Below, one piece after another: positions 190 through 12,784 of a DNA stretch of 40,520 nt (positions are counted from its first letter, which is position 1; every line of letters starts with the position of its first letter). Under the pieces are notes generated by a model that ran no database searches, had not been told where the DNA came from, and was given only the letters and a program-made list of their open reading frames with translations. The DNA comes from Gemmatimonadaceae bacterium (GTDB lineage: Bacteria; Gemmatimonadota; Gemmatimonadetes; Gemmatimonadales; Gemmatimonadaceae), in the NCBI GenBank assembly GCA_019186945.1, contig JABAQJ010000003.1, forward strand, positions 1 through 40,520. The letters run 5' to 3'. A program made the position numbers and the translations under genes.

Positions 190-972
190 ATGAACCGGCC
201 GGCAGACCCGAACCAGAAGCCCGAGCAGAGGGCGCGAGACGCCATCGACCTGATGCTCGCTCAGGCCGGCTGGAAGGTCCAGTCGAAGAACCGGATCGAC
301 TTCAGCGCCGGCCCCGGCATCGCCGTCCGGGAATACCAGACCGATATCGGCCCGGCCGATTACGTCCTGTTCGTCGACAAGACCCCGGTGGGTGTTATCG
401 AAGCCAAGCCCGAGGACTGGGGCCAGAAGCTCACCACCGTTGAGGATCAGTCCGGCGGCTATGCCGCCGCGAAGCTGAAATGGCTCAACAACAAGGAGCC
501 GCTCCCATTCGTCTACGAGAGCACCGGCGTCCTCACCCGATTCACCGACGCGCGCGATCCCAGGCCACGCTCGCGCGAGGTCTTCAACTTCGCCCGCCCG
601 GAGACGATGCAGGAATGGCTCTCGCAGCCGGCATCGCTGCGCTCTCGCATCCAGCGTCTTCCGCCGCTCGACCCGCACGGCCTGCGGGCCTGCCAGATCA
701 AGGCAATCGAAGGACTCGAGGACTCATTCAGGGACGATCGCCCGCGCGCCCTCATCCAGATGGCGACGGGATCGGGAAAGACCTACACCGCCATCACGTC
801 CATCTACCGCCTGCTCAAGCACGCGGACGCCAGGCGCGTCCTCTTTCTTGTTGACACCAGGAATCTCGGCGAACAGGCCGAGCAGGAGTTCATGGCGTAT
901 GTGCCAAACGACGATAACCGGAAATTCACGGAGCTGTACAACGTCCAGCGCCTGAAATCCTCCAAGGTATGC
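190..972 (+). pseudogene. hsdR: Truncated type I restriction enzyme R subunit (HsdR fragment)
   Basis: About 261 residues match the start of HsdR, the ATP-dependent translocating endonuclease subunit of type I restriction systems. Residues 1-140 contain the RecB-like nuclease core, with Asp57 and the Glu71-x-Lys73 pair (motif IEAK). Helicase motif I is at residues 192-198 (ATGSGKT) and a following motif at about 219-226 (FLVDTRNL). Full HsdR proteins run to roughly 800-1100 residues. Here the similarity stops near NVQRLKSSKVC, exactly where a hairpin-rich segment begins at 971. The frame stays open to 1371 but that tail is not HsdR-like. No hsdM, hsdS or HsdR remainder is visible, so the gene is almost certainly dead. 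The ATG at 190 has no strong ribosome site. Confidence 0.8.
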
Positions 973-1206
973 GCGGTATTACCGCGCCCCTTGGCAAGGG
1001 AGGGTTCCACCCCCCGTTGCATCCCCCGGCCAGGCGCTTCGCCCGTGGACCAGACCAGGGTATTTCATTCCCTGGACCCGTTGACCGGCTGTTTCGGCAG
1101 CGGCTTCGACCAAGGAGGGAGACTTCGGCTCTCCCTCCGGACTCCCATCGACCATAGGGCTCACGCAGCCCCCTGGACCCGGCGGCAGGGGTTTCCGCAC
1201 CCCTGC
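971..1206. other. Hairpin-rich non-coding segment upstream of mobC (candidate oriT)
   Basis: Between the hsdR break and mobC lie four perfect inverted repeats. They are 971-977/981-987 (GCGCGGT), 1055-1060/1070-1075 (CCAGGG), 1114-1122/1130-1138 (GGAGGGAGA) and 1185-1192/1199-1206 (GCAGGGGT). MobC accessory proteins bind near the nick site of a transfer origin that commonly lies just upstream of the mob genes. The position and folding therefore suggest an origin of transfer or a piece of one. No recognised nick sequence was identified, so this is inference. The remaining bases to 1306 show no further structure. Confidence 0.4.
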
Positions 1207-1306
1207 TACCACGGCGAATATCGGAGCAACCTGGGCCACGCGCAATTGGAAGCCGAGGCACCGACAGGACGCCGCAACGGTGCACCGCAACAGAAGGAGC
1301 TATCGC

Positions 1307-1696
1307 ATGCCGCCGCGCCAGACCAGCAACAGCCGCAAACGCCAGATTGTCCTCACCGCGCGGTTCTCTGAAGCCGAGGCCAGCGCCATCCGAAAGATCG
1401 CGGAGCAGACCGGTCTGTCGCTGGGAGCGCTGCTACGCCATGCCCTGCTGCAAGTCCCGGCGCCCCACGCCCGGCACCGCCCGTCTGTTGACCATGAAGC
1501 GGTAGCCCGTCTGCTGGGTGAGTTGGGCAAGATCGGCTCGAACATCAACCAGCTCGCCTACTACGCCCACCTCGGCCGCTTCCAAAGCAACAGCATCGAG
1601 CTGGCGCTGCGCGACCTGATGGAGCTGCGCCTTGCCTGCCTTCAGGCGCTGGGGCGCGAGCCCACCCATGACCATCCGCCACACGGCGGCCCATGA
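1307..1696 (+). CDS. mobC: MobC-family relaxosome accessory protein
   Basis: A 129-residue protein. Its N-terminus reads like a ribbon-helix-helix DNA-binding segment (KRQIVLTARFSEAEASAIRK), and its C-terminal half has the MobC hallmark, a conserved stretch near GELGKIGSNINQLA. MobC proteins help a relaxase open the DNA at oriT during conjugative mobilization. The start at 1307 is supported by a good ribosome site, AAGGAGC at 1294-1300; an upstream in-frame start at 1280 lacks one. A relaxase gene would normally follow directly, but none does, so this is a remnant of a mobilizable element. It lies just after the hairpin cluster. The family call is firm; activity is doubtful. Confidence 0.75.
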   Translation: MPPRQTSNSRKRQIVLTARFSEAEASAIRKIAEQTGLSLGALLRHALLQVPAPHARHRPSVDHEAVARLLGELGKIGSNINQLAYYAHLGRFQSNSIELALRDLMELRLACLQALGREPTHDHPPHGGP

Positions 1697-1789
1697 CTTC
1701 CCGCGCCGCAGGGGGTTCCGGGTTCCCCATCGAACCCATCCGATGTCAACTTCAACAGGGGCTGAACCACCCGAACCGTCGGGGAACTC

Positions 1790-2389
1790 ATGGATCTCAG
1801 ATTTGACGCCGCGGGACAGATGGTATCAGACCTGGCCACCGCCGTGGCCTGGCGACTGGACCCCGACCGGCCGCCCAGGGTGCCCAATGATCCCCGAGCC
1901 AGGGAAGCCATCGCGCGCGTCTTCGTCACCAACGTGGCGAGGATGGAAATGCCTCCCCGGCTGAGTCGTCAGGTCGAGCCGCTGAGAGAGGCATTTCCAA
2001 CGGCCGTGTCGGATCTCCTCGGATTCATCGCACTGGAGCACATCTACGCTGCGGTGCACTCGGAGATGGCCGCGAGCATTCAACATCCAGGTCGGGCGCC
2101 ATTTCTCATAATCGACGACACGCCTCAACCGGACGCGATCCTCGTTGACATCGGAGCCATGATCGCGGAGTATCGGGAAGCCCTGCGTGGGCTTGGATGG
2201 GAACGAATGACAGAAGACGCGATCAAGAAAATCATTGGAAACTCGATAACGCCACGTTTTGACGGCGTGGACGTGAGACTCGAGGAAATCAGCCGCAAAC
2301 TCGACGCCGGGTTTAAGGCCACGGCGTCGAATCAGCAGTTTGAAGAGTTGATAGCCGAGATTCGAAAGCTTCAGCCGCCCCATCCCTGA
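1790..2389 (+). CDS. Hypothetical protein, 199 residues
   Basis: No family was recognised. The protein is soluble-looking and mostly helical, with no signal peptide or membrane segment. The last 45 residues (from about DGVDVRLEEISRKLDAGFKA) have heptad-like spacing and may form a coiled coil. The ATG at 1790 follows GGGGA at 1781-1785, a clear ribosome site. The next gene starts two bases after its stop, so the two are probably co-transcribed. It lies between a mobilization remnant and defence genes, which hints at an accessory or defence role without proving one. Confidence 0.6.
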   Translation: MDLRFDAAGQMVSDLATAVAWRLDPDRPPRVPNDPRAREAIARVFVTNVARMEMPPRLSRQVEPLREAFPTAVSDLLGFIALEHIYAAVHSEMAASIQHPGRAPFLIIDDTPQPDAILVDIGAMIAEYREALRGLGWERMTEDAIKKIIGNSITPRFDGVDVRLEEISRKLDAGFKATASNQQFEELIAEIRKLQPPHP

Positions 2390-2391
2390 TC

Positions 2392-2757
2392 ATGGCGCGC
2401 ACAGTCAAACTGCCGGAGGGCCATACCGCGCTCACACCCGCCGACATGGATCGCTTTTCCGTCGGCCCCGACAAGAAGCTCTACCTCGACAACGAACGCG
2501 TTGCTACAAAGAGCCTCTTTGAGCGGCCTATGGCACGCGTGCTCGCCGTCGTGACGGCGGGAGTAACGATTCTGGGCGGCGCGGCGGTCCTCGCAGATAC
2601 CGTCCTGACAATGAACGACCGGTATTGCTGGTGGGCAGGCCTCTACTCTCGCGAAACACAGTGCAGCGACAACGCGGCGTCGAAGGCACCCGCTCCGGAC
2701 TCGAAGACACCCGCCCCGGCTGATACGTCTCGATCCCAGCGCGATAGCACGCACTGA
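2392..2757 (+). CDS. Small single-pass membrane protein, hypothetical
   Basis: A 121-residue protein with no recognised family. Residues 1-47 are polar. A hydrophobic stretch at about 49-70 (VLAVVTAGVTILGGAAVLAD) looks like one membrane segment. A short region with two cysteines and WW follows, then a Pro/Ala/Ser/Thr-rich tail. The start lies two bases after the stop of the preceding orphan gene, so the two form a likely two-gene unit. It is convergent with the OLD-like nuclease gene, and only 29 bases separate the two stop codons. A short inverted repeat there (CGGCC 2770-2774, GGCCG 2778-2782) could serve both as a weak terminator. Confidence 0.55.
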   Translation: MARTVKLPEGHTALTPADMDRFSVGPDKKLYLDNERVATKSLFERPMARVLAVVTAGVTILGGAAVLADTVLTMNDRYCWWAGLYSRETQCSDNAASKAPAPDSKTPAPADTSRSQRDSTH

Positions 2758-2786
2758 CAGCGCGAGATACGGCCGCAGGCCGCGTC

Positions 2787-4751
2787 CTATCTGACCAGCG
2801 CGTTCAAGTGCTTGAAAGCCAGCTCGAATCGGTCCTTCGTTGCGTTCGCAACCTGCGGCCAAAGCGCCGCCGCGTTTTCGGAAAAGTAGCGCGCAGGCCG
2901 GTAGTGACCGAACGTGCCAGACTTCATCGGATTGGCTGCGAGCCATGCCTCGATCGCACGCAGCACGCGCGGCTCCTTCGCGTTGAGAGCAGCCGCGTCA
3001 ATCGGCCGGCTCAGCTGCGCCGCGAACTCAGCATTCACGACTGAGACGTAGAAGTCGCGCTCGAACATGTCCTCAATGTCGGCCTCATTCCTGCCTACGA
3101 ACTCGCCATAGGTGGCCACCTGTTTCTTCTTCAGCAGCTTCTTCTTATAGAGATCCTCAATCAGAACGCGGTCCTGCTCCTGAATGTCCAGCAGCGTGGC
3201 GACGTTCATGCCCTTCTGCGGCGCCAGCAAGGCAACAAATGTCGGCACCTTGCCGCTGCCGCCCACGGGCGTGATCACCCACTTCTCAGAGAGACCGACA
3301 CGGCCCTCTCGCTCCATCTGCGCCGACACCGCGCGCAGGAATAGCATGTCGGCAGGACCTTCAACCACGAGGGAATTGGGGCCGATGAACAAAGTCTGAT
3401 GAATCTCGTATCCGAGCGCCCCCTGCAATGGAAACAGGCTGTCGTCCGTCGCGTCGAAAATGTTGGTCAGAACCTTCGTGCCGTCCTCTTCCCTCGGAAG
3501 CGGAGTCTTAGAGTCGATTCCGAGATCCTGCACGATCCTCACACGCTCCAGCCGTGAGGGATCGATCATGAAAGGTGAGTGCGTGGTGTAGACCAGCTGA
3601 TGAGATGAAAGCTCCGCCTCGAAGTACGCCAGGAGATCGGCCTGCGCGCGGCCGTGGAGCGAAAGGCCAGGTTCATCGAGGAGCAGCGCGACATTCTGCT
3701 TCTGGCGCTTGATATCCTCGTACCACGCCAGAAACGAGAAGAACCAGACGAAGCCGCGGGAGCGCGAGCCCAGCGGTGTATGCGCCCAGTGAACGGTGTC
3801 GTAGACTTCGCCCCAGACGTTGATGCACTTGCGCATGTGCTCTGGGTCTTCCGGCTTGGCGTCGCGGACATCGAACCTCATCTGAACGTGCTGGTTTTGC
3901 GACCAGTACTTCACAATGCGGCTCGTCAGATAGTTGCACGCGCCCTCCAGCCTGTTCTTCAATTCCGTCGTGTTCTTGGTCTGGACAAGCTGCCGGTGGT
4001 CGAGCCGCGCCAGATGGATCAGGCCAAGCAGAGGGTAGTCGGAGTCCTCAAGTTGGTTGCTGTCTTCCCGTGCGATCAGGGCGTTCAGATTCGCCTGACC
4101 CTCCATCTGGTAGTACTCGTCGAAGTACAGAAACTTCGGGGCGCGAGGCCAGAGGATCGTGTTGAAGACGTAGTGCGGGAGGTCGTGCGCGCGGACCTTC
4201 GCCACGAGCGCCTTCAGCGCCTTGACGGCTTCGGTCGCCTCCGCCGCATCCAGTGCCGCGCCGAATGCGTCCCAGTCCGTCGCGCCAGCAAGCGTGTTCT
4301 TGAGATCGTCGGGCAAGGCCGGATTGTCAGCCAGGTGCTTCCGGGCGGCGCTGCTATCGACTGACAGCCGGAACTTGCTGTTGCTCTTCCCATAGGACGT
4401 CAGCCGCTTGAACGTCCGCTCTTTCAGCGCCGACGGGCCGAACACGGAGGAGACGGCCGCTATGTCGTCATCCTCAAGCTCGTAGTCACATTCGACGACC
4501 ACTGCTTCCTCACGATCCCCGCTCTCGACCGCGAACCGGTAGTCCTCGACCTCGCGCTTCGGGTAGTCGTACGTCTCATCGAAGACCGCATCGGCAGCGA
4601 TGATCGGGTTTGTCCGGTACAGCGCCGTCAGCAACGCCGTCTTTCCCGCCTCGTTCTTGCCCACAAGACAGGTGGTCTGATCTTCCAGCCTGATCGGGCC
4701 GGAATCCCAAACGCTTCTGAACTCCCGGACGCGGTATCCCCTGAGCTTCAT
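2787..4751 (-). CDS. OLD-like AAA ATPase with C-terminal TOPRIM nuclease domain
   Basis: A 654-residue protein. The ABC/SMC-type ATPase half has Walker A at residues 31-38 (GKNEAGKT), a signature-like region at 327-339 (LGSRSRGFVWFFS), Walker B at 356-361 (LLLDEP) and an H-loop at 390-394 (THSPF). The TOPRIM half has Glu464 in LVVEGPAD and an acidic patch at LLD (520-522). This layout is that of OLD-family ATP-dependent nucleases, many of which act in phage defence. No UvrD-like helicase (GajB) follows, so it is closer to stand-alone class 1 OLD proteins than to Gabija. The ATG at 4751 is 147 bases downstream of abiEii on the same strand, so the three may be transcribed together. The specific target is unknown. 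Confidence 0.75.
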   Translation of the reverse strand: MKLRGYRVREFRSVWDSGPIRLEDQTTCLVGKNEAGKTALLTALYRTNPIIAADAVFDETYDYPKREVEDYRFAVESGDREEAVVVECDYELEDDDIAAVSSVFGPSALKERTFKRLTSYGKSNSKFRLSVDSSAARKHLADNPALPDDLKNTLAGATDWDAFGAALDAAEATEAVKALKALVAKVRAHDLPHYVFNTILWPRAPKFLYFDEYYQMEGQANLNALIAREDSNQLEDSDYPLLGLIHLARLDHRQLVQTKNTTELKNRLEGACNYLTSRIVKYWSQNQHVQMRFDVRDAKPEDPEHMRKCINVWGEVYDTVHWAHTPLGSRSRGFVWFFSFLAWYEDIKRQKQNVALLLDEPGLSLHGRAQADLLAYFEAELSSHQLVYTTHSPFMIDPSRLERVRIVQDLGIDSKTPLPREEDGTKVLTNIFDATDDSLFPLQGALGYEIHQTLFIGPNSLVVEGPADMLFLRAVSAQMEREGRVGLSEKWVITPVGGSGKVPTFVALLAPQKGMNVATLLDIQEQDRVLIEDLYKKKLLKKKQVATYGEFVGRNEADIEDMFERDFYVSVVNAEFAAQLSRPIDAAALNAKEPRVLRAIEAWLAANPMKSGTFGHYRPARYFSENAAALWPQVANATKDRFELAFKHLNALVR

Positions 4752-4898: not shown

Positions 4899-5714
4899 CT
4901 AAGCGCTGCCCTTCCACGGGTCCCCGGGAAGCCGCGCGATGAGCCGCGCGCGCACGAGCGCGGCTTCGGCACTGGGCGCCCATTGGTAGTCCGATGACAG
5001 CAGGGGCGTGATGTCCGCCAGAAACGCGGGGTCGTTCATTTTCAGCTCGAAGTTCTCCTCAAACTGCGCTCGTGAAATCCGGCTGCCTTCCTCGCGCATG
5101 TACTGAAGGAATGTCGTCACGATGCGCTCCGGATCGCACCGCCCGGCGCCGAGCGCGATCGCAAGATCGAAAAGGTCGCGCCCCTGCTTTCGCTGATACA
5201 GTGCGCGCATCTTGGTTCCGAGCAACTCGTCGAGATTGTAGCTGTGAATGCTGCACGCGCCCTCGAACCAGCGCGACTCCACCTCAAACGGAATCTCGGC
5301 AAAACCGTGAACGGCGAAATGCTCGCGCGTGTTCACTTCGACCTTCAGGCGCAGCGGCACGGCAGGCAGCCCCTCGGAATCGAAGCGGTACACGAAAGTC
5401 ACGCGGCCTTCCGTCTGCTTGTAACGGGGCTTGCCGAGCCACGGATCGAGAGTCGCCCGCAGCGCCTCCATCATCGGCCCTGCCGGCTCCGCGCGCGTCT
5501 GAACCAGGTCGATGTCCTCGGAATAACGGGCGGGCGGCTTCAGGTGCAGCTTGTACAGCGCTGTGCCGCCCCGAAACGCGAGCGCGTCGTGCAGCAGCGG
5601 ATGCGAGAATATTTCGACCAGGGCGCGGCTGATGACGAGATCCTGCTCAACCTGAAAGTCCTGCACCCACGGTGCGTGGGTGCGCCATTCCGTAATGTAG
5701 TCGCGCGGAATCAC
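4899..5714 (-). CDS. abiEii: AbiEii-type nucleotidyltransferase toxin
   Basis: A 271-residue member of the AbiEii/AbiGii toxin family, the toxin of the type IV AbiE abortive-infection module. The nucleotidyltransferase signature is present: FRGGTALYKL (residues 47-56) followed by SEDIDL (65-70), giving the metal-binding acidic pair. A second conserved block is LLGTKMRALYQRKQGRDLFD (164-183), with Lys168 and Arg179-Asp180. Related toxins add nucleotides to tRNA acceptor ends. The start is GTG at 5714, overlapping the abiEi stop in a GTGA, so translation is coupled. All motifs look intact. Confidence 0.88.
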   Translation of the reverse strand: MIPRDYITEWRTHAPWVQDFQVEQDLVISRALVEIFSHPLLHDALAFRGGTALYKLHLKPPARYSEDIDLVQTRAEPAGPMMEALRATLDPWLGKPRYKQTEGRVTFVYRFDSEGLPAVPLRLKVEVNTREHFAVHGFAEIPFEVESRWFEGACSIHSYNLDELLGTKMRALYQRKQGRDLFDLAIALGAGRCDPERIVTTFLQYMREEGSRISRAQFEENFELKMNDPAFLADITPLLSSDYQWAPSAEAALVRARLIARLPGDPWKGSA

Positions 5715-6517
5715 AGCTCAGTCTCCACCTCGGCGTTGACGTGGAGTTTCCAGTCTTCACGGCGCGCCGCCTGCGCGCGCGGAGAACCAGGCGCAAGTGC
5801 GGTCCACTGTTTCGCATGCTCGCTGACGTAGGCTTTGAGGGGCGCGGTCCGCTCGGCCGCGCCCGCCAGCTCCAGCAGGTAGCCAAGCCGCTGCGCCCAT
5901 GGAAGCGGCGCGGTGTCCGCCGCTTCCGCGAGCTTCTGCGCATCGATTCTCTCGGCCAGCTCCGAGAGTATCGTCGCCACTTGATCCAGCCCGCCGACAC
6001 GGGCTTCATAGCCCACCAGATCGAGCGCGGTCGCTTCGGGCGTGGAGACGAGAAGTTCCCCCCGGGGCGTGTTGATATTCTGGACCGGAACCTTGGAGGC
6101 GCGGGCGCGCCTGATGAATGAAACCCGAACCGCACCGCACACGATCGGGCGGCGGGTTGATTCAACGACGACCTGGAATTCCTGCGGGCGTTGGTGCGCC
6201 GCCCCGTGATACTGCGCCGCCGTCAACAGCCCGGCGTAGTAGGGAAGCTTCAAGCGGTTCATGAGCGCCGGGATGAATTGCTCGGCAGGCAGGCAGCCCA
6301 GCGCCCGGTACTCGGGCGGCACGATGACGTAGAACCCCCTTGCCGGAGAGGCCACGAGGCGCTGCTTCGCCAGCCGGTTGACCGCCAGCTTTGCCGCATC
6401 AGCGGAAACGCCCAGCGCCCGCCTGACCTCGGCAGAGGCGAAGTGGTATCTTCCCGCAGCAGCCAGCGAGAGGATGTAGTCCCGGACATTCCGGGAATCG
6501 TGCGCGGCAGATTTCAT
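5711..6517 (-). CDS. abiEi: AbiEi-type antitoxin / transcriptional repressor
   Basis: A 268-residue protein. The N-terminal part (about residues 1-85) is a winged-helix domain (FASAEVRRALGVSADAAKLA, then a wing near RGFYVIVPPEYRALG). The following C-terminal domain is typical of AbiEi antitoxins and includes TPEATALDLVGY. In studied AbiE systems the antitoxin represses the operon by binding inverted repeats and does not bind the toxin directly. Both features fit here: the toxin follows with a 4-base overlap, and a near-perfect inverted repeat sits three bases upstream of the ATG at 6517. Confidence 0.85.
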   Translation of the reverse strand: MKSAAHDSRNVRDYILSLAAAGRYHFASAEVRRALGVSADAAKLAVNRLAKQRLVASPARGFYVIVPPEYRALGCLPAEQFIPALMNRLKLPYYAGLLTAAQYHGAAHQRPQEFQVVVESTRRPIVCGAVRVSFIRRARASKVPVQNINTPRGELLVSTPEATALDLVGYEARVGGLDQVATILSELAERIDAQKLAEAADTAPLPWAQRLGYLLELAGAAERTAPLKAYVSEHAKQWTALAPGSPRAQAARREDWKLHVNAEVETEL

Positions 6518-6823: not shown

Positions 6824-8443
6824 CTACTGCGCGATCGGCTTGACCGTCGGATACGTGATCCCCAGCTGTTCGAGGTACGTCTTGAACTTCGTGGGATCGT
6901 AGTAGTACTTCCGCATTTCCGGTCGGTACTTCTCCATGATATCCGCGTTGAGCCAGATGGGCGGACCGTCGTTCGGGCCGAGGAAGGACTTGTACTTCGT
7001 TTCCTTCGTCTGGACGTCGTTGAAGTAGGTCCAGGCATCGGCTACGACCTGCGGACGCAGCAGGATGTCGAGGAGTGTCATCGCCTGCACCTTGGCGCCG
7101 GCCACGCCGCCCTTGTGCGCGATCGGCGTAGCCATGGCGATGCCGTTTGCCCAGTTGTGTCCGGGAAGCCCCGGGATGTTCGACGGATACCGCAGCGTGA
7201 CGGTGGGCACGTTCCAGGACACGTCGCCGATATCGTCGGAGCCGCCCCCCAGCGAGCGCGACATGTCCACCGGGCCACCGAGCGAATCGATCGCGGTCGC
7301 GAGGCCCTCTTCCTTCACGCCGAGTTCGTGCTGGATCCCTTTGGCGAGGGTGATATCCTTGTCGTCCCACTTGGGCAGTCCGACACGCTTGATGTTGTCG
7401 TAGGTCACCTGGGCGATCGTCTTGTTGAAGTGGCCGGACCATGCGGACCCGAGGATGATGACCGAATCGACCTGGGTGTCCGTCATGAGTGCCGCGCCCT
7501 GGGCGATCTTCTTTGCAGTCGCGAACATTGCCTGGACGTTGTCGTAGTTTCGCTCGCGCAGGTAGAACCAGATCGATGCCGTTTGGGGCACGACATTGGG
7601 CTGGTCACCACCATCCTTGATGACGTAGTGCGATCGTTGCGCAGGTTCCATGTGCTCGCGATGGAACTCCCAGCCCTGGGCCATGAGCATGACCGCGTCG
7701 AGAGCGGACTTCCCGCGCCATGGCGCTCCGGCCGAGTGGGCCGTCTGTCCGCGGAACTTGAACATGACGGACACGATGGCGTTGGATCCGGACTGGCCCC
7801 ACGACACGCCCAGGTTGTTGCCGACGTGGGTGAAGAGGGTGACATCGACGTCCTTGAAGACGCCGGCGCGCACCAGGTGCGCCTTCCCGGCCACGGCCTC
7901 CTCGGCTACGCCAGGCCACAGCTTCAACGTGCCGGGAATCCTGTCGCGTTCCATCAATTCCTTCACGACAATGGCCGCGGCGATGTTGACTGCCTGGCCG
8001 GAGTTGTGTCCTTCGCCGTGACCGGGAGCTCCGGGAACGATCCATTCCTTGTAGCCGAACGCCGGCTTCTGGTTCGATTGGGGGATCCCGTCGATGTCGG
8101 AGCCTAACGCGATCACCGGCTTGCCGGATCCCCACGTGGCCACCCATGCGGTGGGCATTCCTGCCGTACCGCGCTCGACGGTGAATCCGTTCTTCTCCAG
8201 CAATCCCGTGAGGTACTTCGATGTCTCGAACTCCTGCATGCCGAGTTCGCCGAACGAGAAGACCTGGTCGATGATTTCCTGGATCAGTTTGGCGCGCTCC
8301 TCGATCTTCTGCGCGGCTTCGGTCTTGAGGCGCTCGAGTCGCGGGTCCACAGGCGATGCTGAAGGCGCTTTCCGTCCCTGCGCCAGCAGGGCGGCTGGCA
8401 CGAGCGCGCAGAGGACGAGCGAACGGGTAATCCGGCGAGACAT
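6824..8443 (-). CDS. Secreted M20 amidohydrolase (AbgB-like), second of a tandem pair
   Basis: A 539-residue protein with an N-terminal signal peptide (about residues 1-22, ending LLAQ). The rest matches M20-family amidohydrolases of the p-aminobenzoyl-glutamate hydrolase subunit B type, which cleave amide-linked amino acid conjugates in a metal-dependent way. Candidate metal ligands are Asp116/Asp118 (GSDIDG), His142 and His146 (GHGEGHNSG), Glu181-Glu182 and His206 (THVG). Where AbgB-like enzymes have GHGCGHN, this protein has Glu144 in place of the Cys. A C-terminal region (LGPNDGPPIWLNADIMEKYR) is shared with its paralogue. The gene starts 52 bases after the paralogue's stop, so the two are probably one operon. 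The substrate is not determined by sequence, and no abgA partner is present. Confidence 0.8.
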   Translation of the reverse strand: MSRRITRSLVLCALVPAALLAQGRKAPSASPVDPRLERLKTEAAQKIEERAKLIQEIIDQVFSFGELGMQEFETSKYLTGLLEKNGFTVERGTAGMPTAWVATWGSGKPVIALGSDIDGIPQSNQKPAFGYKEWIVPGAPGHGEGHNSGQAVNIAAAIVVKELMERDRIPGTLKLWPGVAEEAVAGKAHLVRAGVFKDVDVTLFTHVGNNLGVSWGQSGSNAIVSVMFKFRGQTAHSAGAPWRGKSALDAVMLMAQGWEFHREHMEPAQRSHYVIKDGGDQPNVVPQTASIWFYLRERNYDNVQAMFATAKKIAQGAALMTDTQVDSVIILGSAWSGHFNKTIAQVTYDNIKRVGLPKWDDKDITLAKGIQHELGVKEEGLATAIDSLGGPVDMSRSLGGGSDDIGDVSWNVPTVTLRYPSNIPGLPGHNWANGIAMATPIAHKGGVAGAKVQAMTLLDILLRPQVVADAWTYFNDVQTKETKYKSFLGPNDGPPIWLNADIMEKYRPEMRKYYYDPTKFKTYLEQLGITYPTVKPIAQ

Positions 8444-8495
8444 AGGCGGTGATCGGAAGGGGGGGACGAACGGGTGGTCGATCGCGACTGCGCAC

Positions 8496-10118
8496 CTACT
8501 GCACGGCGCGCACGGTGGGGTACTTGATGCCTAACTGCTCGAGGTAGGTCTTGTAGCGGCTCGGGTCGTAGTAGAATGGGCGCATCTGCTCGCGATACCG
8601 GGCCATGATGTCGGCGTTGAGCCACGTCGGCGGTCCGTCGTTCGGTCCGAGGAACGACTTGTACTTGATCGTCTTCGTCTGGACGTTGCGGAAGTAGTCC
8701 CACGCATCGGTGACGAGCCGCGGCGTGAGCATGAGGTCGAGGAGTGTGAGGGCCTGGACCTTGGCGCCGGCCAGGCCGCCCTTGTGTGCGATCGGTGTGG
8801 CCATCGCGATTCCGTTGGCCCAGTTGTGGCCGGGAAGTCCGGGTATGTTCGACGGATAGGACAGGGTGATCGTCGGGACGTTCCAGGAGACATCGCCGAT
8901 GTCGTCGGAGGCACCGAAGGTCACGTTCTCCGGTGGCGGGGGACCAAGGCGTTCTACCTGCGTGGCAAGCCCGGTCACCGGGGCGCCGATCTCGCGTTGC
9001 AGCGAACGCGCAAGGGTCTGATCGTCGTTGTCCCATGTGGGCAGGCCGACGCGTTCTATGTTCAGATATGCGGCTTCGGCAACGGCCTTGTTCATGTGCG
9101 GATTCCACGCCGAGCCGAGTATCATCACCGTGTCGACCTGTGTGTCCGTCATCAGCGCCGCACCCTGGGCAATTCGCTTTGCGGCCTCGAACATCTGCAG
9201 GACGCGATCGTGGTCACGCTCACGCAGGTAGAACCAGATGCTCGCCGTCTGCGGCACTACGTTGGGTTGGTCGCCGCCGTCCTTGATCACGTAGTGCGAG
9301 CGTTGCTGCACTTCCATGTGCTCGCGATGATACTCCCATGCCTGTCCCATCAGCATCACGGCGTCCAGGGCCGATTTTCCGCGCCACGGCGCACCGGCCG
9401 AGTGCGCGGTCTGACCGCGGAACTTGAACATCACGGAAACGAGCGCGGTGAGCGGCATGCGTCCCCACGAGACCGCCAGATTGTCGCCGACATGCGTGAA
9501 CAGGTTGACGTCTACATCCTTGAAGACGCCGGCGCGCACCAGATGTGCCTTCCCTGCGACCGCCTCCTCCGCCACTCCGGGCCACAGCTTGAGCGTGCCC
9601 GGGATCCCGTTGCGCTGCATGATGTCCTTCACGACGAGCGCCGCGACGATATTCACCGCCTGGCCGGAATTGTGACCCTCGCCATGGCCGGGTGCGGATG
9701 TCACCAGGGGCTCGCGATAGCCCACGCCAGGCTTCTGGTTCGACTGGGGAATCCCGTCGATGTCCGAGCCTAACGCGATCACCGGCTTGCCCGAACCCCA
9801 GGTCGCGACCCACGCGGTCGGCATCCCGGCCACTCCACGTTCGATCCGGAACCCGTTCTGCTCGAGGATGCCAGTGAGGTATTTCGACGTCTCGAACTCC
9901 TGCATGCCCAGTTCGCCGAAGGAGAAGACCTGGTCGATGATCTCCTGAACTTGCTTGCCGCGCGCGTCAACGGCCGCCAGCGCTTCCTTCTTGAGTCGTT
10001 CCAAACGAGGATCCACCGGCGGAGCATTGGCCGTCTTCACCTGAGCGACGACCGGGTCGACCTTCAGCACCAGGCCGAGGAGGAGAAGTGCGAGGGCAGC
10101 AGTCCGAGTGCGATGCAT
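8496..10118 (-). CDS. Secreted M20 amidohydrolase (AbgB-like), first of a tandem pair
   Basis: The chosen start gives 540 residues beginning MHRTRTAALALLLLGLVL, a clean signal peptide. In-frame starts at 10127 and 10217 would only prepend polar residues and lack ribosome sites. The mature protein is highly similar to the downstream paralogue along its whole length. It shares the GSDIDGIPQSNQ block, GHGEGHNSGQ (with the same Cys-to-Glu change), EEAVAGKAHL, THVG and PGLPGHNW. It differs mainly around the loop near GPPPPENVTFGASDD. A recent duplication with retained export is the simplest reading. It may hydrolyse acylated or peptide-like conjugates outside the cytoplasm. The 154 bases upstream (10119-10272) show no further gene. 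Confidence 0.78.
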   Translation of the reverse strand: MHRTRTAALALLLLGLVLKVDPVVAQVKTANAPPVDPRLERLKKEALAAVDARGKQVQEIIDQVFSFGELGMQEFETSKYLTGILEQNGFRIERGVAGMPTAWVATWGSGKPVIALGSDIDGIPQSNQKPGVGYREPLVTSAPGHGEGHNSGQAVNIVAALVVKDIMQRNGIPGTLKLWPGVAEEAVAGKAHLVRAGVFKDVDVNLFTHVGDNLAVSWGRMPLTALVSVMFKFRGQTAHSAGAPWRGKSALDAVMLMGQAWEYHREHMEVQQRSHYVIKDGGDQPNVVPQTASIWFYLRERDHDRVLQMFEAAKRIAQGAALMTDTQVDTVMILGSAWNPHMNKAVAEAAYLNIERVGLPTWDNDDQTLARSLQREIGAPVTGLATQVERLGPPPPENVTFGASDDIGDVSWNVPTITLSYPSNIPGLPGHNWANGIAMATPIAHKGGLAGAKVQALTLLDLMLTPRLVTDAWDYFRNVQTKTIKYKSFLGPNDGPPTWLNADIMARYREQMRPFYYDPSRYKTYLEQLGIKYPTVRAVQ

Positions 10119-10272
10119 GGCGTGCATGGACAGGGTGGCGAGATGTCGGTCGGCGCGGAAGGCACTCTGGCGAGCAATGGGCCGCGCATGGCCGTCAAGG
10201 CGATTGTATCGGCCCACGCGATGCCGTCCAGCACTCGCCCAGAAATACGGACGCAGGAAGCCGGACGTTGAG

Positions 10273-11625
10273 TCAGCGGTTCATCGAGGTTGCGTCTGGC
10301 GGGCGGGCAGTCACGAGGCCGCCAGTGGAGCGACAAGGGAGTCGTTTGAGCAGACGTGCGGTGGTGTCCTCGTCACGGCTGCGAGCGAAGCGAACGTGAC
10401 GCCGGATGAACTGACGCGGCGAAGGCGCCGCCACGCTGGCTGGCGCCGGGACTGGCGCCGGAATAGGCGCAACGCTCGGCCGACGTGGCGCGACGGCGGC
10501 CGCCGGACTGGTGGCAGGGGGAACGAGGTGGCCGGCGCGTGCCTCCGCTGGCTGCAACCTCTGCGACCACAACATAGTAACGGCGGATCCCGTGATGGCG
10601 AGCGCGGCGCGCTGCACCGGCGGGAGCCCAGGCGGCGTTCCAGGACGCGCACGATGTCCAGCCGTCGGCGCAATCGGCGGGTTCGAAGATGTTGCTGCGT
10701 TGTCCTGGCTGGCTGCAGGCCGAGCGACTCCCAATCGCTCGGGCTCTTCCGGCGGTGTCTCGGGTGACGAGCGCGTGTCTGCTTGTGTTGCTGCCGACGC
10801 GACTGGAGGTTCAGGGGCGTCGACGATCCGAGGCGCTGTATCTGCCATCTCGGCGGGGACGGCGGCGAGGTCCACCATCACGTTCAGGTTTACCACGTGG
10901 CCCGTCGCACGCGCCGGTTCGAGACGTTGCATGACTCGGGGATCCACGGCGCAATGGCAGCCAGCCGCGGACCCGAGGTCGAGCAGACAGGACTCGTCGG
11001 GGTCGCAATGCCGGGCAACTGTGGTGAGCGTCTCCGGGGCGACGGCATGCACATGGGCCGTTCTCGTCATCAGGGAGAGGAACGACGCGGACGGGACTCC
11101 GCCGGGGACGGACGCAAATCGGCGCCGGTCGGCAGGAATCATATCATCGAAATGCGGTGGCTGACGGGCTGGATCGCACCCGGAGCCAACGAGTCGTGCC
11201 AACAGCATCTCGGGCAGCAAGCGCTCGTCGATGTCATCGCTCAACGCACCTGGGCACGCACCCGCGTAGGTGATATGCAATGTTGCAGGGTGAAACGATG
11301 CCCGGAGGTATCGCGCGGTGGCGACAGGCGGCGACACCGACCTCAATGTCTGGAAGTCGTCGGCTCCCGCAGCAGCAACGAGTGCCTGCACACGCGGACA
11401 GTGTGCGAGGAGGATGGCGGCGGTCGATTCGTCGCGGGAAAAATGCGCGGCACGTGCGGCGATGAGTTCGTCGCCCCAGCTCGCCGGCGCCACGAATGCG
11501 AAACCGTATGCGAGACAGGCACGCGACAGTTGCACCACGTCCGCCGGACGAGCAGCAACCTGCGCGTCATTGCCAAGAACGATGACGCGCAGGATCGAGG
11601 ACGCGGGAGAACTGCTCGACTTCAT
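10273..11625 (-). CDS. Degenerate [FeFe]-hydrogenase-like protein with proline-rich tail
   Basis: A 450-residue protein from ATG 11625; a TTG at 11706 would add 27 residues. Residues 60-230 resemble the catalytic C-terminal domain of iron-only hydrogenases. HCPRV (Cys76) fits the TSCCP motif, SPPVATARYL fits the SP(x)nARYL region, ACPGA (Cys124) fits PCxxK, and a stretch ending GCHC (223-225) fits the last motif. Three of the four cluster-ligand cysteines appear kept and the first of the last pair is Ala. The N-terminal ferredoxin domains are absent. Residues 260-440 are Pro/Ala-rich with a hydrophobic stretch near 340-353. A hydrogenase is unlikely; a sensor or cluster-binding relative is possible. 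The homology is by eye and moderate. Confidence 0.45.
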   Translation of the reverse strand: MKSSSSPASSILRVIVLGNDAQVAARPADVVQLSRACLAYGFAFVAPASWGDELIAARAAHFSRDESTAAILLAHCPRVQALVAAAGADDFQTLRSVSPPVATARYLRASFHPATLHITYAGACPGALSDDIDERLLPEMLLARLVGSGCDPARQPPHFDDMIPADRRRFASVPGGVPSASFLSLMTRTAHVHAVAPETLTTVARHCDPDESCLLDLGSAAGCHCAVDPRVMQRLEPARATGHVVNLNVMVDLAAVPAEMADTAPRIVDAPEPPVASAATQADTRSSPETPPEEPERLGVARPAASQDNAATSSNPPIAPTAGHRARPGTPPGLPPVQRAALAITGSAVTMLWSQRLQPAEARAGHLVPPATSPAAAVAPRRPSVAPIPAPVPAPASVAAPSPRQFIRRHVRFARSRDEDTTARLLKRLPCRSTGGLVTARPPDATSMNR

Positions 11626-11749
11626 CGAGCGGGAGACGAAGACGTGAGCTGGGGGAAGGGGATCACCTCGTGAGGCCCCGCGCCCGAGCCTCTCCTGCAC
11701 AGGCAAAGGTAGTCGCGCGCACGATCATCGACAGGGTGTTTTGCGAGGC

Positions 11750-11778
11750 ATGACACGCTGCCAGCGCTCCGCTACGTT
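11750..11778 (+). promoter_or_regulatory. Promoter of the dapE-asd-lysC operon
   Basis: ATGACA (11750-11755) and TACGTT (11773-11778) are separated by 17 bases, a good sigma-70-like pair. The -10 box ends only 10 bases before the dapE ATG at 11789, so the mRNA would have almost no 5' leader. The same TACGTT box appears before rplM. Confidence 0.45.
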
Positions 11779-11788
11779 TGGACGCACC

Positions 11789-12784
11789 ATGATAGACGTC
11801 GTCGCGCTCGCCGCCGAGCTACTTTCGATCGAGTCCCCCACCGGTGGTGAGGGGAAGGCCGTGGACTTCGTTTCGCGGTGGCTTGTCTCGCGGGGATGGA
11901 ACGTGACCGTCCAGGAGGTGACGCCGGGTCGCGGCAACATCTGGGCATCCCGCGGTCGCGGGGTCGTCACGCTTTCCACGCACCTGGACACCGTGCCACC
12001 GTACATTCCTCCGCGTCTCGATGGCTCGCGACTCTACGGGCGCGGTGCCTGTGATGCCAAGGGGATCGCTGCGGCGATGGCAGCCGCGGCGGAGTCGCTG
12101 GCGGCAAGTGGCGAGGATCGCGTCGACCTCCTTTTCGTGGTCGGGGAAGAAAAAGGTTCTGACGGTGCACGGGCCGCCAATCGTCTTCCCACCTCGTCGC
12201 GGTTCCTAATCAATGGAGAGCCGACGGAGAGCAAGCTTGCGATCGGAGCGAAGGGATCGCTGCGCGTGCACTTGCGCACGCGTGGCAAGGAAGCTCACTC
12301 GGCGTATCCGCATTTGGGTCGTTCGGCCATCGAGCCCATGCTTGCACTCCTCCCGACGATGGGCGAGATGCACCTGCCGGTGGACGACAAGCTGGGCGAG
12401 ACCACGGTCAACATTGGGACGATTCGCGGCGGCACGGAGGCGAACATCGTGCCCGGGCTCTGCGAGGTCGAACTGATGTTTCGGCTGGTGAGCGACGTGC
12501 AGGATGTGAAGGCTGCCCTGGAGCGGTGGGTCGGCGATCGGGCAGAGATTTCCTACGGCTCGCACATCCCGGCCCAGTATTTCCACACGCTTCCGGGATT
12601 CGACGCCGCTCCCGTGGCGTACACGTCCGACATCCCGTTGCTCGACCGCTGGGGTACGCCGCTCCTTTTCGGTCCCGGCTCGATCCACGTCGCCCACACG
12701 CTGGATGAGCACATCGACGTCGAGGAATTGCGCGCGGCGGTGCCGGCCTACGAGCGGCTGATCCACGCGTTGCTGGCCACCTGA
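11789..12784 (+). CDS. dapE: Succinyl-diaminopimelate desuccinylase-like M20 peptidase
   Basis: A 331-residue cytosolic M20 metallohydrolase. The ligands are all visible: His-x-Asp in STHLDTVPP, Asp in RGACDAKG, the GEEKGSDG pair, Glu in INGEPTE, and the closing His in HVAHTLDEH. The dimerisation domain region begins near HSAYPHLG. ArgE, LysK and DapE share this fold. The DapE assignment comes from context: it heads an operon with dapD, the preceding succinylation step, and has asd, lysC, dapB and dapA beside it. DapE removes succinate from N-succinyl-LL-diaminopimelate. ATG 11789 is preferred over upstream 11741 because the protein aligns from MIDVVALAAELL and a promoter lies between them. 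It is shorter than E. coli DapE (375) and closer to LysK-like forms. Confidence 0.75.
   Translation: MIDVVALAAELLSIESPTGGEGKAVDFVSRWLVSRGWNVTVQEVTPGRGNIWASRGRGVVTLSTHLDTVPPYIPPRLDGSRLYGRGACDAKGIAAAMAAAAESLAASGEDRVDLLFVVGEEKGSDGARAANRLPTSSRFLINGEPTESKLAIGAKGSLRVHLRTRGKEAHSAYPHLGRSAIEPMLALLPTMGEMHLPVDDKLGETTVNIGTIRGGTEANIVPGLCEVELMFRLVSDVQDVKAALERWVGDRAEISYGSHIPAQYFHTLPGFDAAPVAYTSDIPLLDRWGTPLLFGPGSIHVAHTLDEHIDVEELRAAVPAYERLIHALLAT

Follow-up and report, generated by a model that had tools for sequence, protein, structure and literature searches.

An orphan [FeFe]-hydrogenase-like H-domain protein of Gemmatimonadaceae with a putatively remodelled cysteine site

H-domains without hydrogenase activity are already known from eukaryotic Nar1. 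Nar1 holds one cluster at the [4Fe-4S]H site (site 1), its clusters are O2-labile and a role in cluster trafficking has been proposed for it (PMC12621388). Sensory [FeFe]-hydrogenases (HydS) mostly lack the proton-relay cysteine, 17% of them keeping it (PMC10055695); the group C subtypes are described as being transcribed with different regulatory elements (PMC5037454).

The gene considered here lies on a 40,520-nucleotide stretch of DNA from a Gemmatimonadaceae bacterium ("the window"). Its product had been likened, in a preliminary description made by eye, to a degenerate H-domain. Pfam, NCBIfam and PDB searches with the single 450-aa sequence gave no match (0, 0 and 0), so that the resemblance lay below their detection; PADLOC also returned 0 matches with this query, and PF02906 had 0 matches across the whole of the genome. 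Table features are numbered from the first letter of the window.

Table 1. Features of the H-domain locus and its immediate neighbours
Feature	Position	Strand	Remarks
Orphan H-domain protein gene	10273..11625	-	ATG at 11625, stop at 10273-10275, 450 aa
[FeFe]-hydrogenase-like H-domain, residues 8-261	10843..11604	-	Predicted (AlphaFold); VIA Z 16.3
Cys76, motif 1 (HCPR)	11398..11400	-	Aligns with second Cys of TSCCP
Cys124, motif 2 (GACPG)	11254..11256	-	Aligns with Cys of MPC
Cys223, motif 3	10957..10959	-	Aligns with second Cys of CEGC
Cys225, extra Cys of orphan form (GCxC)	10951..10953	-	Proposed stand-in for lost first motif-3 Cys
Pro/Ala-rich tail, residues 262-450	10276..10842	-	Largely disordered by prediction; membrane helix not evident
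M20-like amidohydrolase	8496..10217	-	Downstream, same strand; no Pfam match at 1e-5; resembles 6824-8443 by eye
M20-family (DapE/ArgE-like) gene	11741..12784	+	Divergent neighbour, first of asd-lysC run; same layout in G005

Fold and family of the orphan protein

Over the H-domain, the best codon score among the three minus-strand frames was that of the 450-aa ORF; over the tail, the score was weak in all three. The idea that the tail represented a frameshifted longer gene was rejected, translation of the other frames having yielded no recognisable product. Residues 1-273, modelled with AlphaFold together with 34 relatives, gave a pLDDT of 86.3 and a pTM of 0.86. Rows 1-31 of the Foldseek comparison were all [FeFe]-hydrogenases (best E 3.5e-4, probability 1.00), and the rows after them mostly thiamine enzymes with a probability of 0.12 or less. 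VIA-align superposed range 8-261 of the model on CpI with a Z of 16.3 (rmsd 3.8 Å, 246 residues aligned), its best 50 rows being all hydrogenases of the [FeFe] kind. Judged from the computed model, residues 8-261 nearly certainly adopt a complete H-domain fold. The preliminary description had made its reading depend on whether a hydrogenase-like fold would be predicted, and such a fold was found. It had also remarked on the missing ferredoxin domains: the protein indeed begins directly at the H-domain, neither the model nor Pfam revealing an N-terminal ferredoxin-like site, and no Fer4 was found in the query by Pfam.

Matches to the query (E 0.001 or better) were present in 55 of 99 related genomes, namely in 26/59 from its own family, 29/33 from a second family of the same order (f2) and 0/7 from f3. 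Three long-form f2 proteins of 569-602 aa were found by Pfam scan to combine Fer4, PF02906 (E 3e-11 to 1e-21), FeS (PF04060) and GGDEF. PF02906 was matched above its curated cut-off (22.1 bits) in 43 of 97 genomes. In 13 of the 43 the matching protein was of the orphan form, scoring up to 35.8 bits and in one case passing only with its neighbouring stretches. As the query lies below the cut-off and these 13 relatives above it, the query is placed in the PF02906 superfamily solely by its modelled fold and by these relatives. Profile-profile comparison (hhalign) joined the orphan and GGDEF forms with a probability of 99.9 and an E of 1.2e-35 (22 versus 8 rows), or of 5.8e-33 with a larger set (35 versus 10 rows). 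The two forms have the motifs PATPxQ, GDEL, RRR, AGG/PGG and EPPR in common. A profile built from ten cysteine-retaining GGDEF forms reached the [FeFe]-hydrogenases of the PDB at an E of 5.6e-6, and the orphan-form profile alone at 0.13.

Defined by CP, GxC, GCxC and EPPR-type motifs in a protein devoid of Fer4 or GGDEF, the orphan family includes the query, and a second family copy occurs on contig 5 of the same genome. A search of the whole phylum produced matches in 115 of 395 genomes. Scores above 250 bits were confined to Gemmatimonadaceae; weaker matches came from f2, f7 and f9, mostly in frames of 560-600 aa, and two weak ones from f11. Scanning of contigs with one peptide pattern retrieved 35 loci, all titled Gemmatimonadaceae, Gemmatimonas or Gemmatimonadetes MAGs, of which 34 entered the alignment, the partial locus L085 being omitted.

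Cysteine site and selection

In CpI, the first cysteine of TSCCP is the proton relay. Alignment of the orphan profile with hydrogenases placed the CxCP of the family on TSCCP, with His75 at the position of the relay cysteine. The lysine pair of MPCTAKK is absent from motif 2 of the query, and the first cysteine of motif 3 is replaced by Ala220. Position by position, therefore, the preliminary description was right to count three of four ligands as kept (Cys76, Cys124 and Cys223, the lost one being Ala220). A count of distinct orphan-form H-domains, from which those covering fewer than 200 profile positions and contained duplicates had been excluded beforehand, showed positions 76, 124, 223 and 225 to be cysteines in 49 out of 49. 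Nothing in the GGDEF forms corresponds to Cys225. Since this residue lies two positions beyond Cys223 and is invariant in the family, "remodelled" describes the site better than "degenerate": the proposed homology with the H-domain was upheld by fold and profile, whereas the qualifier "degenerate" was not. We read the change from CEGC to GCxC, as it appears in the alignments, as the relocation of one ligand and not simply its loss.

The GGDEF forms are less uniform. The CP, GxC and CEGC set is kept in 10 of 16 and lost in 6, a retention rate biased upward by the presence of the top PF02906 matches among the 16. Loci L027, L028, L029, L030, L039 and L044 encode the forms in which the cluster cysteines of the H-domain are lost and the GGDEF domain is present. 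The H-domain can thus persist without the full ligand set, and in these proteins it may have changed its role.

Across nine close pairs of relatives, dN/dS ranged from 0.04-0.16 in the H-domain to 0.18-0.40 in the tail. Selection thus acts on the family as sampled in these pairs.

Tail, genomic setting and the window copy

Modelled at full length, the protein had a pLDDT under 50 at almost every residue from 268 to 450. The Pro/Ala-rich tail noted earlier is thus present as described, but the accompanying "hydrophobic stretch", near residue 339, scores too low for a membrane helix (KD19 0.83), and the best value in the tail of the window copy, 1.09, likewise gives none. A membrane helix, scored as a hydrophobic stretch with KD19 above 1.6, was predicted in 28 of 49 orphan-form proteins, 18 of the 28 stretches lying within 21 residues of the C-terminus; these figures are undercounts, some relatives ending at contig or locus ends and L085 having been left out. 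The motif LPRAYxARR recurs in 29 of the 49 otherwise variable tails (shuffle mean 0.22; the sequences are related, not independent) and is missing from that of the window copy. A search for a partner with this pattern in 10 genomes returned 12 matches, of which 5 lay in H genes and the other 7 did not; given 4 matches in the reversed control, no partner was found.

The codon-based caller with which neighbourhoods were established was home-made and overlooked some genes, including the query gene. Four settings recur. The window copy and the copy in genome G005 both adjoin the same lysine-pathway run, M20-asd-lysC. In a second setting the H gene diverges from a Crp/Fnr-type regulator and adjoins an M28 peptidase. 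The third has SCO1/SenC and Caa3_CtaG preceding the H gene in the same orientation and, at some loci, a sulfocyanin-like gene following it; in the fourth, an anti-sigma-like gene, a penicillin acylase and a thioredoxin are found nearby. In loci L062, L065, L066 and L067 the H gene lies about 80 bases past Caa3_CtaG and is read in the same direction, and SCO1/SenC is found upstream wherever the locus extends that far; the sulfocyanin-like gene lies downstream of the H gene in L062 and L065, and L037 is from the same genome as L065. The Crp/Fnr-type regulator was considered as an obligate partner and rejected as such, because 7 of the 15 genomes with the regulator have no H gene beside it (the other 8 do); conserved synteny with it is weak evidence. 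The neighbours scanned included no recognisable gene for Fe-S assembly.

Further genes were noted in the window. Two adjoining M20-like amidohydrolase genes occupy positions 6824-10217 on the minus strand, only one of which (6824-8443) has the Pfam M20_dimer domain. An AbiEii toxin (4899-5714) and an AbiEi antitoxin (5711-6517), a pair of the type IV toxin-antitoxin or phage-defence kind, span positions 4899-6517. Positions 190-4751 hold possible remnants of a mobile island: an HsdR/ResIII-like protein of 393 aa (190-1371), a NikA-like mobilisation protein (1280-1696) and an OLD-like AAA protein (2787-4751).

The window copy has only distant relatives. In a quick tree, built with 10 of the 16 GGDEF rows, it joined the G005 protein with an SH-aLRT of 96, a pairing that carries a long-branch warning for both partners; its end branch of 1.33 was the longest among the flagged rows. 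A paralogue next to lysine-pathway genes, the window copy is evolving fast.

Proposed function and comparison with known systems

The orphan protein is almost certainly not a working hydrogenase, because neither HydE, HydF nor HydG was found above cut-off in its genome, which is listed as 100% complete. The best matches there, 18.6 bits for HydG (cut-off 312.15) and 32.9 bits for HydE (cut-off 254.6), were short stretches at one place. HydF exceeded its cut-off in 0 of 97 genomes; sub-cut-off matches occurred in all 97, the rows listed spanning about the first 175 profile positions only, and these look like ordinary GTPases. The earlier remark that no maturation genes lie nearby thus extends to the genome as a whole. 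A functional hydrogenase was rejected on this result together with the incomplete canonical four-cysteine set (3/4). The aerobic setting suspected in the preliminary description agrees with the several haem-copper oxidases of the genome, where COX1 was matched above cut-off at five places.

Four conserved cysteines without the [2Fe] machinery are most simply explained if the [4Fe-4S]H site holds a single [4Fe-4S] cluster, like site 1 of Nar1. The conservation of these residues makes the binding of an Fe-S cluster likely. The relatives fused to GGDEF, and the one clade found among oxidase-assembly genes, point to redox, O2 or NO sensing, so that a redox- or oxygen-sensing role is perhaps what the cluster serves. 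We infer the type of cluster, the signal, the partner and the direction of evolution as follows. Cys76, Cys124, Cys223 and Cys225 would hold one [4Fe-4S] (or another Fe-S cluster), with the [2Fe] subcluster absent. Related Gemmatimonadota families have ferredoxin-H-domain-FeS-GGDEF proteins, whose H-domain would act as input to the diguanylate cyclase; the orphan form probably arose from these or has an ancestor in common with them. It would have exchanged the ferredoxin, FeS and GGDEF parts for a long, disordered tail that in many members includes a membrane helix. The cluster would be a switch responsive to redox state, O2 or NO, whose loss or oxidation alters the binding of a partner, and in the window copy, a paralogue, the tether would be missing. 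Counting against a sensor, the neighbours of the window copy are biosynthetic and no partner was found. Taken as a whole, the statement that this is a soluble, non-catalytic H-domain with one [4Fe-4S] cluster, engaged in redox, O2 or NO sensing and descended as proposed, has in our estimation about an even chance of being right.

A complete H-cluster in a true H2-sensing hydrogenase, like those of group C, is extremely improbable. The missing relay cysteine does not by itself exclude an H-cluster, since most HydS lack it too (PMC10055695), and GGDEF-fused relatives do exist; but the absence of maturases argues strongly against one, and the altered spacing of motif 3, the missing lysine of MPCTAKK, the missing ferredoxin relay and the haem-copper oxidases all weigh on the same side. 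As regards the features by which group C is recognised, no Pfam domain, and hence no fused output such as GGDEF, was found in the query (a separate output protein may be encoded elsewhere), and alignments to hydrogenases and to the GGDEF forms showed that the H-cluster ligands and [2Fe] contacts are not fully conserved in it. An Fe-S carrier or assembly factor that, in the manner of Nar1, holds a labile cluster and then passes it on appears quite improbable. Nar1 combines an H-domain lacking [2Fe]H with the O2-labile clusters and proposed trafficking role mentioned above, and the orphan form is likewise without maturases; however, Nar1 has a second site, in an N-terminal ferredoxin-like domain (PMC12621388) of which the orphan form has none, its patchy presence (26/59 genomes of its own family) ill suits a general assembly factor and no Fe-S assembly gene was recognised near it.

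An H-domain that no longer binds Fe-S and serves in structure or protein docking, its cysteines holding zinc or nothing, is unlikely, while deserving some weight: the six GGDEF-form H-domains that have lost cysteines keep their other motifs and GCxC departs from the known H-cluster spacing, yet four cysteines in all 49 orphan forms and strong purifying selection speak for a retained site. That the window copy alone is a decaying, functionless paralogue in an otherwise functional family we also think unlikely. Its long end branch, the weak coding signal of its tail and its lack of both the membrane helix and LPRAYxARR would fit decay, but its frame is open, all four cysteines and the PGG and EPAR motifs are retained, and G005 has likewise retained its copy, which shares this lysine-operon setting.

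The fold family is already known; within the literature searched, the orphan form with its relocated ligand and tail is undescribed, no account of such a family having been found in a partial coverage of publications on [FeFe]-hydrogenases, on sensory and GGDEF forms and on Gemmatimonadota. Returning to the proposed non-catalytic sensor, we suggest only tentatively, as a rather doubtful generalisation, that it represents a bacterial class of H-domains without H-cluster or ferredoxin, in which a ligand has moved from CEGC to GCxC, the GGDEF output has been dropped, many members are tethered to the membrane by their long disordered tail, and the fold of an anaerobic enzyme has been put to use in aerobes as a [4Fe-4S] switch for redox state, O2 or NO, with a connection to genes of oxidase assembly in one clade. 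If true, it would offer a bacterial system for asking what the H-domain does away from hydrogen, and a bacterial case of how evolution rewires a metal site, in oxidase-bearing genomes and with relatives fused to a cyclic-di-GMP enzyme.

Among described systems, the PF02906 enzymes (CpI, CrHydA1, TmHydA) share with the query the whole H-domain fold, the motif-1 and motif-2 cysteines and the second cysteine in motif 3. They differ in that the query lies below Pfam detection, aligns over 246 residues as against about 357 in the CpI range, lacks the proton-relay cysteine, the motif-2 lysine and the first motif-3 cysteine, possesses Cys225 and comes without ferredoxin or maturases above cut-off. 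Nar1/NARFL of the eukaryotic CIA machinery resembles the orphan form as an H-domain without [2Fe]H in organisms without maturases; it differs in possessing a ferredoxin-like domain and in targeting the CIA complex, whereas the orphan form has the Pro/Ala tail, in many members with a membrane helix, a separation drawn from the description of Nar1 and not from its sequence. Sensory [FeFe]-hydrogenases (HydDB group C; TmHydS) use the H-domain for sensing, as proposed for the orphan form, and often miss the relay cysteine, but HydS retains the H-cluster ligands and takes up [2Fe], whereas the orphan form has neither maturases above cut-off nor a fused output domain. Closest to it by profile are the ferredoxin-H-domain-FeS-GGDEF proteins of related Gemmatimonadota families, which retain Fer4, FeS (PF04060) and GGDEF and whose motif 3 is CEGC (10/16) or lost (6/16), in contrast to the GCxC of the orphan form.
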